Source: Alienimonas chondri (lineage in GTDB: Bacteria > Planctomycetota > Planctomycetia > Planctomycetales > Planctomycetaceae). Taken from it: a stretch of DNA of 34,447 bases. A model generated the notes under the pieces. That model saw only the letters and a program-made list of their open reading frames with translations, did no database searches and was not told where the DNA came from. The position numbers were made by a program, and so were the translations under genes. The stretch lies in NCBI RefSeq assembly GCF_013036045.1, contig NZ_WTPX01000039.1:1-34447 (forward strand), given 5' to 3'. This document shows positions 20,269-23,053 of this stretch, piece by piece; positions within the stretch are counted from its first letter, which is position 1, and every line of letters begins with the position of its first letter.

Positions 20269-21177
20269 TTATCCCTCCGTGAAGAACTCCAGCCGCACGA
20301 CGCGGCCGGTCTCGAAGCCGACGGTCATCAGCTTGCCGGCGGCATCGAGGGCGAGGTCGGTGATCGCCGCGGGGGCCGGCGCCGCCCAGTCGACCTCGCC
20401 GGCGGCGGTCAGGCGGAACAGCTGTTGTTCTAACGTGGCGACCGCCAGCGGTCCCCAGCCGCGAAACGCCATCGCGACTTTCGCGGGGCTGTCGCCGGTG
20501 GACAGCGTGTCCTTCACCCGGCCGCTGCCGTCGAATCGCTGCACGCCGAGGTTGAACGCCGCCGCCGCCATCCGCGTCCCGTCGCCGGTGACCGCAAGGT
20601 CGCCGCAGTTCGCCCACGTCTTCACGTCCAACTGCTGCCGACCGCGGAGATCGTAGGACGCGATCAGTCCCCGATCCGCGGCTCCCACCAGCAAGGGACG
20701 GGTGGCGAGGAAGTGCAGGTGATCCAACGGCCGCAGCGCGGTGAACCGGGACAACCGCTTGCGACGGTTGGTGTAGACAGTCACGTCCCCGTTGGAGAGG
20801 GCGACCGCGACGTGCCGGCCGTGCGGATCGACCGCGAGCGCGGTGATCGACGCCGGCATCGGCAGTCGCCATTTCACCCGCAGGTCCGGCTCGACCCAGC
20901 CGAGGACGTCCGCCCCGAACGCCGCCGCCGCCGCGGTCCCGGAGTCCGCGAAGGCCAACGAAGACAGATCCTTCAATCCCCGTTGCAGATGTTCGACCCG
21001 CCCGGCCGCATCGAGCATCGACAGCCCGCCGCCCTGGTCGGCGACCAGCGTGCGGCCGCCCTCCCGGGCGACGCGGACGGCGATCAGCGGGGCGTCCGCG
21101 GAGAACCCCCACAACATCGCCGGCGGCATCCCCTGCCCCGCGGAGAGCCATCGAGAATCGGCAGAGGACTCGCTCAT
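20269..21177 (-). CDS. Beta-propeller (WD40-like) protein
   Basis: A 302-residue protein made of about seven similar strand-rich units of 35-45 residues. Units show the pattern hydrophobic-hydrophobic-A-x-D-x-x-G, for example SITALAVDPHGRHVAVALSN, CGDLAVTGDGTRMAAAAF and ITDLALDAAGKLMTVGFE. This is the look of WD40 or related beta-propellers. There is no signal peptide or membrane helix, so it is probably cytoplasmic. No catalytic motif is visible. Such proteins usually serve as binding platforms. The partner is unknown; the neighbouring OmpA gene offers no clear link. Confidence 0.7.
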   Translation of the reverse strand: MSESSADSRWLSAGQGMPPAMLWGFSADAPLIAVRVAREGGRTLVADQGGGLSMLDAAGRVEHLQRGLKDLSSLAFADSGTAAAAAFGADVLGWVEPDLRVKWRLPMPASITALAVDPHGRHVAVALSNGDVTVYTNRRKRLSRFTALRPLDHLHFLATRPLLVGAADRGLIASYDLRGRQQLDVKTWANCGDLAVTGDGTRMAAAAFNLGVQRFDGSGRVKDTLSTGDSPAKVAMAFRGWGPLAVATLEQQLFRLTAAGEVDWAAPAPAAITDLALDAAGKLMTVGFETGRVVRLEFFTEG

Positions 21178-21637
21178 CCCGCGAGACTAGCCGTCACCGC
21201 CGGGGAGCGCCGCCCGTGCCGCCGTGGCTCAAGAGAAACGACGAGGGAGGAAACCGACGGTCCTGTTCTAAGCGGGCGCCCGCCGGAGGCCGAAACCCCC
21301 GGCGGCGTTCCCGCTCCCGGTGAAAGCAAGGAAGGACCGCCCACGCCTCCCCCGCCGAGGTCCGATCGAACCGCGACGAAGCACGCCGGGCGAGACACCG
21401 CCCGGGTCAGATCAGTTCGCAGAGAACCTTCGCCGGAGCGGCGGCCGAAGACCTGCTCGAACGCCTTCAGAACGACTTCGTAGTCCGTGCCCGCCGTTGC
21501 CGGCGCGTGGTGCAACCGACAGGCGCGGGCGCCGGGGCGATTGGAGAGCAGCGCCGCCCGCTTGGCGGGAAGGTCGGTAGCGTCCGCAAGCGGCGGACGA
21601 GCACGGCGAGCAGCGGGTCGGCGGTCGGTTCAGACAT
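21178..21637 (-). pseudogene. Frameshifted ORF remnant downstream of reverse transcriptase
   Basis: Seven bases after the RT stop codon an ATG at 21637 opens a frame reading MSEPTADPLLAVLVRRL, which then degenerates and stops at 56 codons. Shifting the frame by one base near 21587 restores sensible coding: ADATDLPAKRAALLSNRPG, then RACRLHHAPATAG and TDYEVVLKAFEQVFGRR, before the frame becomes low-complexity and stops near the start of the beta-propeller gene. I read this as the remains of a gene that was coupled to the RT, broken by a frameshift and probably eroded at its 3' end. No family is recognised. It may instead be non-coding, or a sequencing error may have broken a real gene. The remainder of this stretch (about 21178-21430) shows nothing else. 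Confidence 0.35.
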
Positions 21638-21643
21638 GGCGAA

Positions 21644-22834
21644 TCAACCGACACCGCGGGGAACACCGGGTTCAGCACGTGGCCCGCGCGCCACCATCGT
21701 CAGCACGCCGGCCCATCCGGCGAGTTGCTCGTCCGTGTAAGTGGCGTGCATTCCGGTCCGCCGGCGGTGCAGCGCGGCACGGAGTTCGCGTCGCACCTTG
21801 CGGGGCAGGTTCAGGCGGTCGTTCACCACCAACCCGCAGATCATCTGCCGCTGGTGCTGACGCAGTATGCGGGTCTTGCGGGGGTTCAACCGGAAGCCGG
21901 CCCTTTTCACGACCCGGTCGATCTGCTGCAGGAGTTCGCGGACCGCCTGCGAGTCGTCCTCGGCGCTGCTGAAGGCGAGGTCGTCCGCGTAACGGGTGTA
22001 GCGGAACCCACGTCGGGCGGCGGACTTGGCGAGGGCGTAGTCCACGCCGTGCATCAGCAGATTGGAGAGCCGCGGACTCGTCGGCGCCCCCTGCGGCAAG
22101 CCCGGCTCGCCCCCCTCGCCCGCATGCGTCGTCAGGCGGGTGAGCAGCGCCGCAGCCTCCGCGTTCCAGCCGATGCGGCGGAAGTAGTAATCGACAGACT
22201 TCGCCGTGACCGAGGGGAAGAAGTCTTTCAGGTCGCAGGTGATCACGACCGCCCGGCCGACGTGCGGGGCGGCGTGATCGACGATCCCCTTCCCCTTCTC
22301 AAACCCGCAGGCTGCCGGGTCGGCGTGCAGTTTGGCCAGCACCTTGCGGAGCAGCGTGCGTTGCAGGTCCATCGTCGCCGGGTCGGGGATGTGCAGTCGC
22401 CGCACCCCGCCGGACCGCTTGGGGATCTCCGCCTCGCGGTACTTCGGTTCGTGGTTCTGCAGGAGATGAGTTGTCAGACCGCAGCGCCGGGCCAACTCTT
22501 CGATGTCCATCCCCTTCCCGCGAGCGGCGCGAATCCGGTGTTTCGCCCGGAACAGGGAGTACCGATCGACTCGTTTCAGTCTCTTGAAGAAGTACCACTG
22601 GGCGAGATTGATCCCGATCGCGAAAAGAATCGGCACCGTCAGCCACGGGGCAATCCGTTGCGCAAGCGGCGGACCGAACATCGCCGCAGTCAGGCCGAGC
22701 ACGAAGAGGATGCTGAAGCATCCGCACCCGGTCAGCAATAACGCGATCAGATCACGCCACGCGGAGTAAGGTCGAATCGGCGCCGGTTCGACCTCGTGGC
22801 GATCCATGCGGCCGTACGCGGCGCCGTCGTTCAT
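21644..22834 (-). CDS. Retron-like reverse transcriptase with two N-terminal membrane helices
   Basis: An RNA-directed DNA polymerase. From the ATG at 22834 it has 396 residues. Residues about 29-52 and 63-83 are hydrophobic and predicted to span the membrane. The RT core begins near 135 (AEIPKRSGGVRRLHIPD). Catalytic Asp201 is in CDLKDFFPSVT (200-210), the LPQGAPTSP loop is at 246-254, and the active-site YADD is at 282-285. The retron-specific sites are altered: NAxxH reads HAAPH (187-191) and VTG reads ICG (332-334, in ICGLVVNDRLNLPRK). Other possible starts are 22915 and 22807. There is no maturase or endonuclease domain, so it is not a group II intron protein. A structured stretch lies upstream and a broken ORF downstream. 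Retron-like RT is confident; a working retron is not shown. Confidence 0.85.
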   Translation of the reverse strand: MNDGAAYGRMDRHEVEPAPIRPYSAWRDLIALLLTGCGCFSILFVLGLTAAMFGPPLAQRIAPWLTVPILFAIGINLAQWYFFKRLKRVDRYSLFRAKHRIRAARGKGMDIEELARRCGLTTHLLQNHEPKYREAEIPKRSGGVRRLHIPDPATMDLQRTLLRKVLAKLHADPAACGFEKGKGIVDHAAPHVGRAVVITCDLKDFFPSVTAKSVDYYFRRIGWNAEAAALLTRLTTHAGEGGEPGLPQGAPTSPRLSNLLMHGVDYALAKSAARRGFRYTRYADDLAFSSAEDDSQAVRELLQQIDRVVKRAGFRLNPRKTRILRQHQRQMICGLVVNDRLNLPRKVRRELRAALHRRRTGMHATYTDEQLAGWAGVLTMVARGPRAEPGVPRGVG

Positions 22835-22928
22835 AACCGATGCGGCGGCGGACACGGATTCGAGCGGGCCGGGAGGCGGCGGGCGAGAGTCACAATGAAT
22901 GAGGCGGGCGATCATGCGACCGCCCGCC

Positions 22929-23053
22929 CCAGCGTCCCGCCAGCGGGATGTTCCGCGCCGGAACATCCCACTGCCCGAAGTTTGAAGCCAAACCTGTCGG
23001 CCCGGACGGCGAAACGCCGCCCCGCGCTCGGGCGAGCGCCACCGGGACGCCAG
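22929..23053 (-). ncRNA. Candidate structured RNA upstream of the RT (msr-msd-like)
   Basis: Read on the minus strand, complementary arms GCGTCCCG (23050-23043) and CGGGACGC (22939-22932), extendable to 11 bp with two G-U pairs, enclose about 100 bases. Between them are four hairpins: GCGCTC/GAGCGC (23039-23024), CGGCG/CGCCG with a TTT loop (23019-23007), GTTTG/CAAAC with a GCTT loop (22993-22980), and a 10-bp perfect stem GGGATGTTCC/GGAACATCCC (22969-22945). The order (outer arm, small hairpins, longest hairpin, outer arm, RT gene) resembles a retron msr-msd. The longest stem is short for an msd, and in DNA this rich in G and C some hairpins arise by chance. Confidence 0.35.

Follow-up and report, generated by a model that had tools for sequence, protein, structure and literature searches.

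We identified a retron in Alienimonas chondri, within a window of 34,447 nucleotides (the whole stretch of DNA that was analysed), which is probably a stand-alone system with a reverse transcriptase (RT) tethered to the cytoplasmic membrane, as judged from sequence comparison and structure prediction. Retrons, bacterial elements in which a small RNA is reverse-transcribed into DNA, are generally understood as soluble complexes of RT, RNA and DNA that guard an effector, either separate or fused. The element described here is a retron by its RT and its RNA, and seems to be new as a putatively membrane-anchored family in which no linked effector gene was found. The RT gene and the parts of its catalytic region were placed as follows.

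22834..21644, minus strand: RT gene, 396 aa, with an ATG start at 22834, recognised by RVT_1 and retron HMMs
21677..22462, minus strand: RT core and thumb, about residues 125-386, from the Ec86 RT match and Foldseek
21980..21991, minus strand: catalytic YADD, residues 282-285, present in 53/53 relatives
22262..22276, minus strand: HAAPH of region X, at the NAxxH position, residues 187-191, where alignment A1 shows A188 and H191 as invariant
21833..21841, minus strand: ICG in place of VTG, at the opening of region Y, residues 332-334, shared by the window and the sister species alone

A profile search of the window ORF located an RVT_1 domain at residues 137-328 (E=1.8e-22). Together with the hydropathy profile and an AlphaFold2 model (mean pLDDT 85.7, from a 24-row alignment), this bears out the proposal of an earlier note on this DNA that a complete RT core with YADD lies behind two hydrophobic helices. 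The RT is under purifying selection, with dN/dS of about 0.2 overall and about 0.17 in the RT part.

Comparison with known RTs resulted in a consistent placement among retrons. The NCBIfam model for retron St85 matched at 1.9e-60, as opposed to 1.8e-20 for group II, and the closest solved protein was the RT of retron Ec86 (Eco1), matched over residues 126-379 with E=2.7e-37. All of the top 18 structural matches in Foldseek were retron RTs, again led by Ec86. The best PADLOC profiles were RT_XIII (264 bits, 4.9e-79), whose match is limited to the RT part (profile positions 133-408 of 469), and RT_outgroup (238 bits); because the scores of other retron types were close, no retron type was assigned. 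Searches of genome contigs with a single sequence gave no matches and those with an alignment did. In a 104-row tree, in which the bootstrap had incompletely settled and some reference rows formed long branches, the RT family (hereafter group A, 34 rows) formed a single clade with support of 100/99 and clustered with the Ec86, Ec67 and St85-type references (96/91), apart from the group II intron row. Identity as a group II intron RT, a placement that the earlier note had named as a refutation, was rejected, the window RT falling elsewhere (73 bits against a cut-off of 300; separate long branch in the tree). A diversity-generating retroelement was also unsupported, with the DGR RT far below the retron RTs in the fold ranking.

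The window RT departs from both signature motifs of retrons, NAxxH and VTG, which counts against reading it as a retron. However, VTG is intact in 34 of the 53 relatives, among which ICG is limited to the window and its sister species, and N is the commonest first residue at the NAxxH position across the family, where the window has H. In validated retrons the N of NAxxH is likewise substituted (Ec48 and Mx65), as is VTG (Vc81 and Ec48; PMC6868368). Since the relatives mostly carry VTG and validated retrons vary at the identical positions, we regard the altered signatures as probably ordinary variation, and motif alteration as the mark of a lineage was rejected. The earlier note had read HAAPH and ICG as possible signs of a separate retron-like lineage: the replacements are present in the window and the family does have a clade of its own, but it is not the altered motifs that set this clade apart, ICG being private to the genus. 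A further point against the retron reading is the short region Y of the family, with a median of 57 residues, counted from the VTG position onward, compared with the length of about 90 residues given for retrons (PMC6868368).

The membrane segment precedes the RT core and consists of two helices.

22685..22753, minus strand: first hydrophobic helix, about residues 28-50 (hydropathy peak 2.41; helix 24-53 in the model)
22583..22651, minus strand: second hydrophobic helix, about residues 62-84 (AlphaFold2 helix 55-89)

In the AlphaFold2 model the two long helices form a hairpin ahead of the RT fold, and the corresponding hydropathy peaks in the sister species reach 2.56 and 2.20, the latter for the second helix. 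A basic stretch follows the second helix in the window (net +8 within 20 residues), which suggests that the RT domain lies on the cytosolic side of the membrane; the net charge after the transmembrane (TM) segment is not positive throughout the relatives, and this counts against the membrane-tethered reading. A TM-like N-terminal segment of one or two helices was found in 32 of the 53 family members, compared with none among 80 retron-type RTs taken from viral contigs, a difference beyond chance. The N-terminally TM-fused homologues whose existence the earlier note had left to a search are thus at hand, and they support its prediction that an N-terminal segment ties the RT to the membrane. In the remaining 21 members, most of which come from Phycisphaerae-type genomes, the protein starts with a short motif, for example MGLFDWIKRLLG, MGFFDFLKRLFS or MSWFRWLLG, and their N-termini are more amphipathic than those of the other genes at these loci (mu p=2e-7), a supportive rather than final test, since the start codons were picked by eye. 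Early-branching members of group A have the amphipathic N-terminus, and a single subclade of the tree holds most of the TM members. Because the members that lack a TM segment start with a short amphipathic helix, membrane attachment seems, at the level of sequence, to have been retained by differing means.

Some RTs carried other terminal features. The RT of locus L151 has an N-terminal region resembling HEAT-type repeats, another RT group (L168, L170, L172, L173, L025 and L072) combines an N-terminal RQEIYDRIRESSKDEFILEEMIRLGFW with aromatic C-termini (KPWWKFW, for example), and the RT of L058 has a TM segment at its C-terminus. In the latter group and in L058, contact with the membrane is possibly made at the opposite end of the protein.

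The hydrophobic N-terminus could in principle be an artefact of a start codon annotated too far upstream, as a second ATG lies within the window ORF at residue 109. This explanation is extremely improbable: the sister species has F in place of M109, the N-terminal 105 residues are constrained (dN/dS about 0.35, as against about 0.17 in the RT part), and several relatives, L029, L031 and L035 among them, lack any ATG or GTG in the roughly 50 codons past the TM segment. With the segment also present in homologues, the downstream true start that the earlier note had held out as a refutation fails.

Upstream of the RT gene, at a distance of about 100 nt in the window, lies a structured non-coding RNA (ncRNA) with the following elements.

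22932..23050, minus strand: structured ncRNA, msr-msd-like, 119 nt (model R1 62.9 bits, MFE z=-5.65, covariation)
23043..23050, minus strand: 5' arm of the closing stem P0, a1-like (covariation, fold)
22932..22939, minus strand: 3' arm of P0, a2-like (covariation, fold)
23042, minus strand: unpaired G immediately after the a1-like arm, invariant in 40/40 sequences
23004..23022, minus strand: SL2, 8-bp stem with a UUU loop (99.4% of cells paired)
22941..22973, minus strand: SL4, 15-bp variable hairpin, msd candidate (fold; stem kept in the sister species, where the sequence differs)
22903..22928, minus strand: G+C-rich hairpin between the ncRNA and the RT gene, in terminator position, with an imperfect T-run in the window

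A conserved element occurs 90-420 nt before the RT start codon in essentially all group A loci, with an ncRNA size of about 100-145 nt. The 40 aligned sequences share a common fold consisting of P0, SL1, SL2 (exactly 8 bp with UUU), a less alignable SL3 and the variable SL4. For P0, SL1 and SL2 combined, 96.5% of cells were paired, with double changes at 12 of 18 pairs (99 cells), whereas slid controls, in which the partner was moved by 1-3 columns, gave 2-8 double-change cells and 29-47% pairing; none of 500 shuffles reached the observed covariation score. SL4 varies in sequence and retains its stem (mean z -3.6, and below -2 for 30 of the 40 relatives). In some relatives SL4 is only 7 bp long, which counts against the retron reading and means that RT-DNA there would be unusually small. 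The invariant G at 23042 is, by its position in the predicted fold, the candidate branching guanosine, and the linked ncRNA as predicted has the order and shape of a retron msr-msd. With an msr/msd-like RNA of its own upstream of the RT, the element is a retron proper, more than retron-like.

The covariance model R1 found a single copy in the whole window genome (62.9 bits, E=5.9e-11) and recovered about 15 loci or copies from outside its building set, and it gave no convincing match in about 60 RT loci outside the family. Among 294 genomes of the phylum the R1 element occurred in 23, all of which carry the RT family with the RNA adjoining the RT. No matching RNA family was found in Rfam at either gathering or relaxed thresholds. 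At three loci (L130, L024 and L146) the ncRNA occurs twice in tandem at a spacing of about 170-200 nt, the copies being similar in their msr-like part and different in SL4.

Strict intrinsic terminators lie between the RNA and the RT in 20 of the 53 loci, as would be expected if the RNA were a cis-regulatory leader with a terminator that controls expression of an RT acting elsewhere. We consider this very unlikely, as a leader accounts poorly for the msr-msd architecture, for tandem copies with different SL4 hairpins, for an SL4 that changes its sequence and keeps its stem, and for an SL2 that matches an RT-bound element of Ec86. The minimal msr fragment of Ec86, which is bound by region Y of the Ec86 RT, is an 8-bp stem with a UUU loop (PMC6868368), and SL2 of group A is the same element. 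The likeness to Ec86 extends to the closing stem, the msr-like stems and the msd-like hairpin, which occur in matching order. In contrast to Ec86, the window RT has an N-terminal membrane anchor and a region Y about 30 aa shorter, and in group A no separately encoded effector was found and the ncRNA and msd hairpin are shorter.

The neighbours of the RT in the window include an LplA-like ligase, an SDF symporter, a WD40-like/beta-propeller-like protein and OmpA, among others. The RT has the identical location in the sister species, and in other genera different housekeeping genes surround it. No conserved effector gene emerged from an all-against-all comparison of the neighbouring ORFs, from gene calls or from searches with Pfam and PADLOC, the last of which gave no match among the 10 neighbours tested; examination of the homologues' surroundings, as the earlier note had proposed, thus yielded no neighbour conserved between genera. 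A tripartite retron defence system was therefore not recovered in the window or in its relatives, in that no linked effector protein was found beside the RT. Assignment to retron type XIII was rejected, since the accessory genes of that type are absent among the window neighbours and no PADLOC match occurred in the tested neighbours of relatives. Downstream of the RT in the window (21174-21640, minus strand) is a 113-aa ORF that matched nothing in Pfam and may be preceded by a frame break; beside other family members no homologue of it was seen.

Type IV retrons (Ec48) encode a transmembrane effector separately. These and the window element both combine a retron with a membrane segment, which in the window is within the RT itself. 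This raises the alternative that the membrane segment is a fused effector, a membrane-active helix or hairpin that the RT-msDNA complex keeps inactive until infection sets it free, in a one-gene version of such a system. No other effector gene is nearby, one-gene retrons exist (the PADLOC 'single gene' models RT-TIR, RT-protease and RT-Toprim), the window carries two helices, and amphipathic and hairpin helices can permeabilise membranes. Nevertheless, we regard a fused effector as unlikely, though a serious alternative: the segment is weakly conserved relative to the RT part (dN/dS 0.35 vs 0.17), and because it is swapped among two TM helices, one TM helix and an amphipathic helix, a tether fits better than a specific membrane effector.

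Group A is almost restricted to Planctomycetota. No members were found on plasmids, phages or viral contigs, where all the RTs belonged outside the family, and most species within the carrier genera of this bacterial family keep the RT. The sole non-planctomycete member found, L057 from Candidatus Methylomirabilis, has both RNA and RT, situated between DUF445 and pyruvate kinase genes. It is nested in the clade, which suggests at least one transfer; its setting points either to a cassette transferred in full or to an error in binning.

The location fixed amid housekeeping genes within genera, the retention by most species of those genera, the absence from mobile and viral sequences as surveyed and the purifying selection would all suit a domesticated retron, in which a chromosomal RT-msDNA system serves housekeeping or regulation and not defence. 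Against this stand the patchy distribution (23 of 294 genomes), the one apparent transfer to Methylomirabilis and the fact that, to our knowledge, every retron of known function acts in phage defence. We therefore see domestication as possible, though on the unlikely side.

A second retron-type clade, group B1 (L175-L186), is present in most genomes of this planctomycete family. Its N-termini bear either a TM segment or amphipathic motifs like MGLFQFIRRLLFGSS, and about 60-300 nt upstream of its RTs is an RNA with a long closing stem, a hairpin of the GCGGGG-ATA-CCCCGC type and a variable msd-like hairpin, on which model R1 gave no match. Groups A and B1 are thus alike in having an amphipathic or TM N-terminus and a conserved upstream structured RNA, but B1 is a separate clade (100/99) with a different RNA, a longer N-terminal region and a full-length region Y. 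A membrane protein of about 250 aa (MPDQELFSIIHPGPP and NRSSPVFAI motifs), designated A4, lies 20-190 bp downstream of the RT at L175, L176, L178, L179 and L181-L185, on the same strand and after 9 of the 12 B1 RTs. Homologues of A4 occur in 130 of 150 genomes of the family, and in the window genome A4 is on contig C2, not adjoining an RT. Given this wide presence and the lack of linkage to the RT here, A4 is a core protein with no evidence for a link, and it was rejected as a trans effector of the window RT.

For the membrane-tethered, stand-alone retron that we favour, the upstream ncRNA would fold via P0 (a1/a2), SL1-SL3 (msr) and SL4 (msd), and SL2 would be recognised by the RT. Synthesis would begin at the invariant G after a1, SL4 would be copied into a short RT-DNA, and the N-terminal helical hairpin would hold the RT-RNA-DNA complex to the membrane on its inner side. 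As no effector is linked, the output would be the anchor itself or would pass via an unlinked host protein. We infer the branched msDNA synthesis, the membrane location and the cytosolic RT domain; the role, most likely surveillance at the membrane for phage or membrane stress, is a guess. A more speculative idea, which we hold to be rather doubtful, is that DNA synthesis is membrane-bound and the interchangeable segment of the RT serves as both tether and output, such that an ncRNA and one protein make up the whole system.

The literature searched, with the classification of Mestre and others (2020) outside its scope, contained no description of membrane-anchored or amphipathic retron RTs; members of group A may be listed in that classification without these features. 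Model R1 supplies a ready covariance model for a compact ncRNA family, which may find use in tools for RT-DNA production. If our reading is true, the output of a retron can be tied to the membrane, and some retrons may be long-term chromosomal residents as opposed to mobile defence cassettes. More speculatively, and as part of the doubtful idea above, the amphipathic or TM N-terminus of the independent B1 clade may point to membrane-bound retrons as a trait common to planctomycetes, perhaps connected with their unusual membranes.
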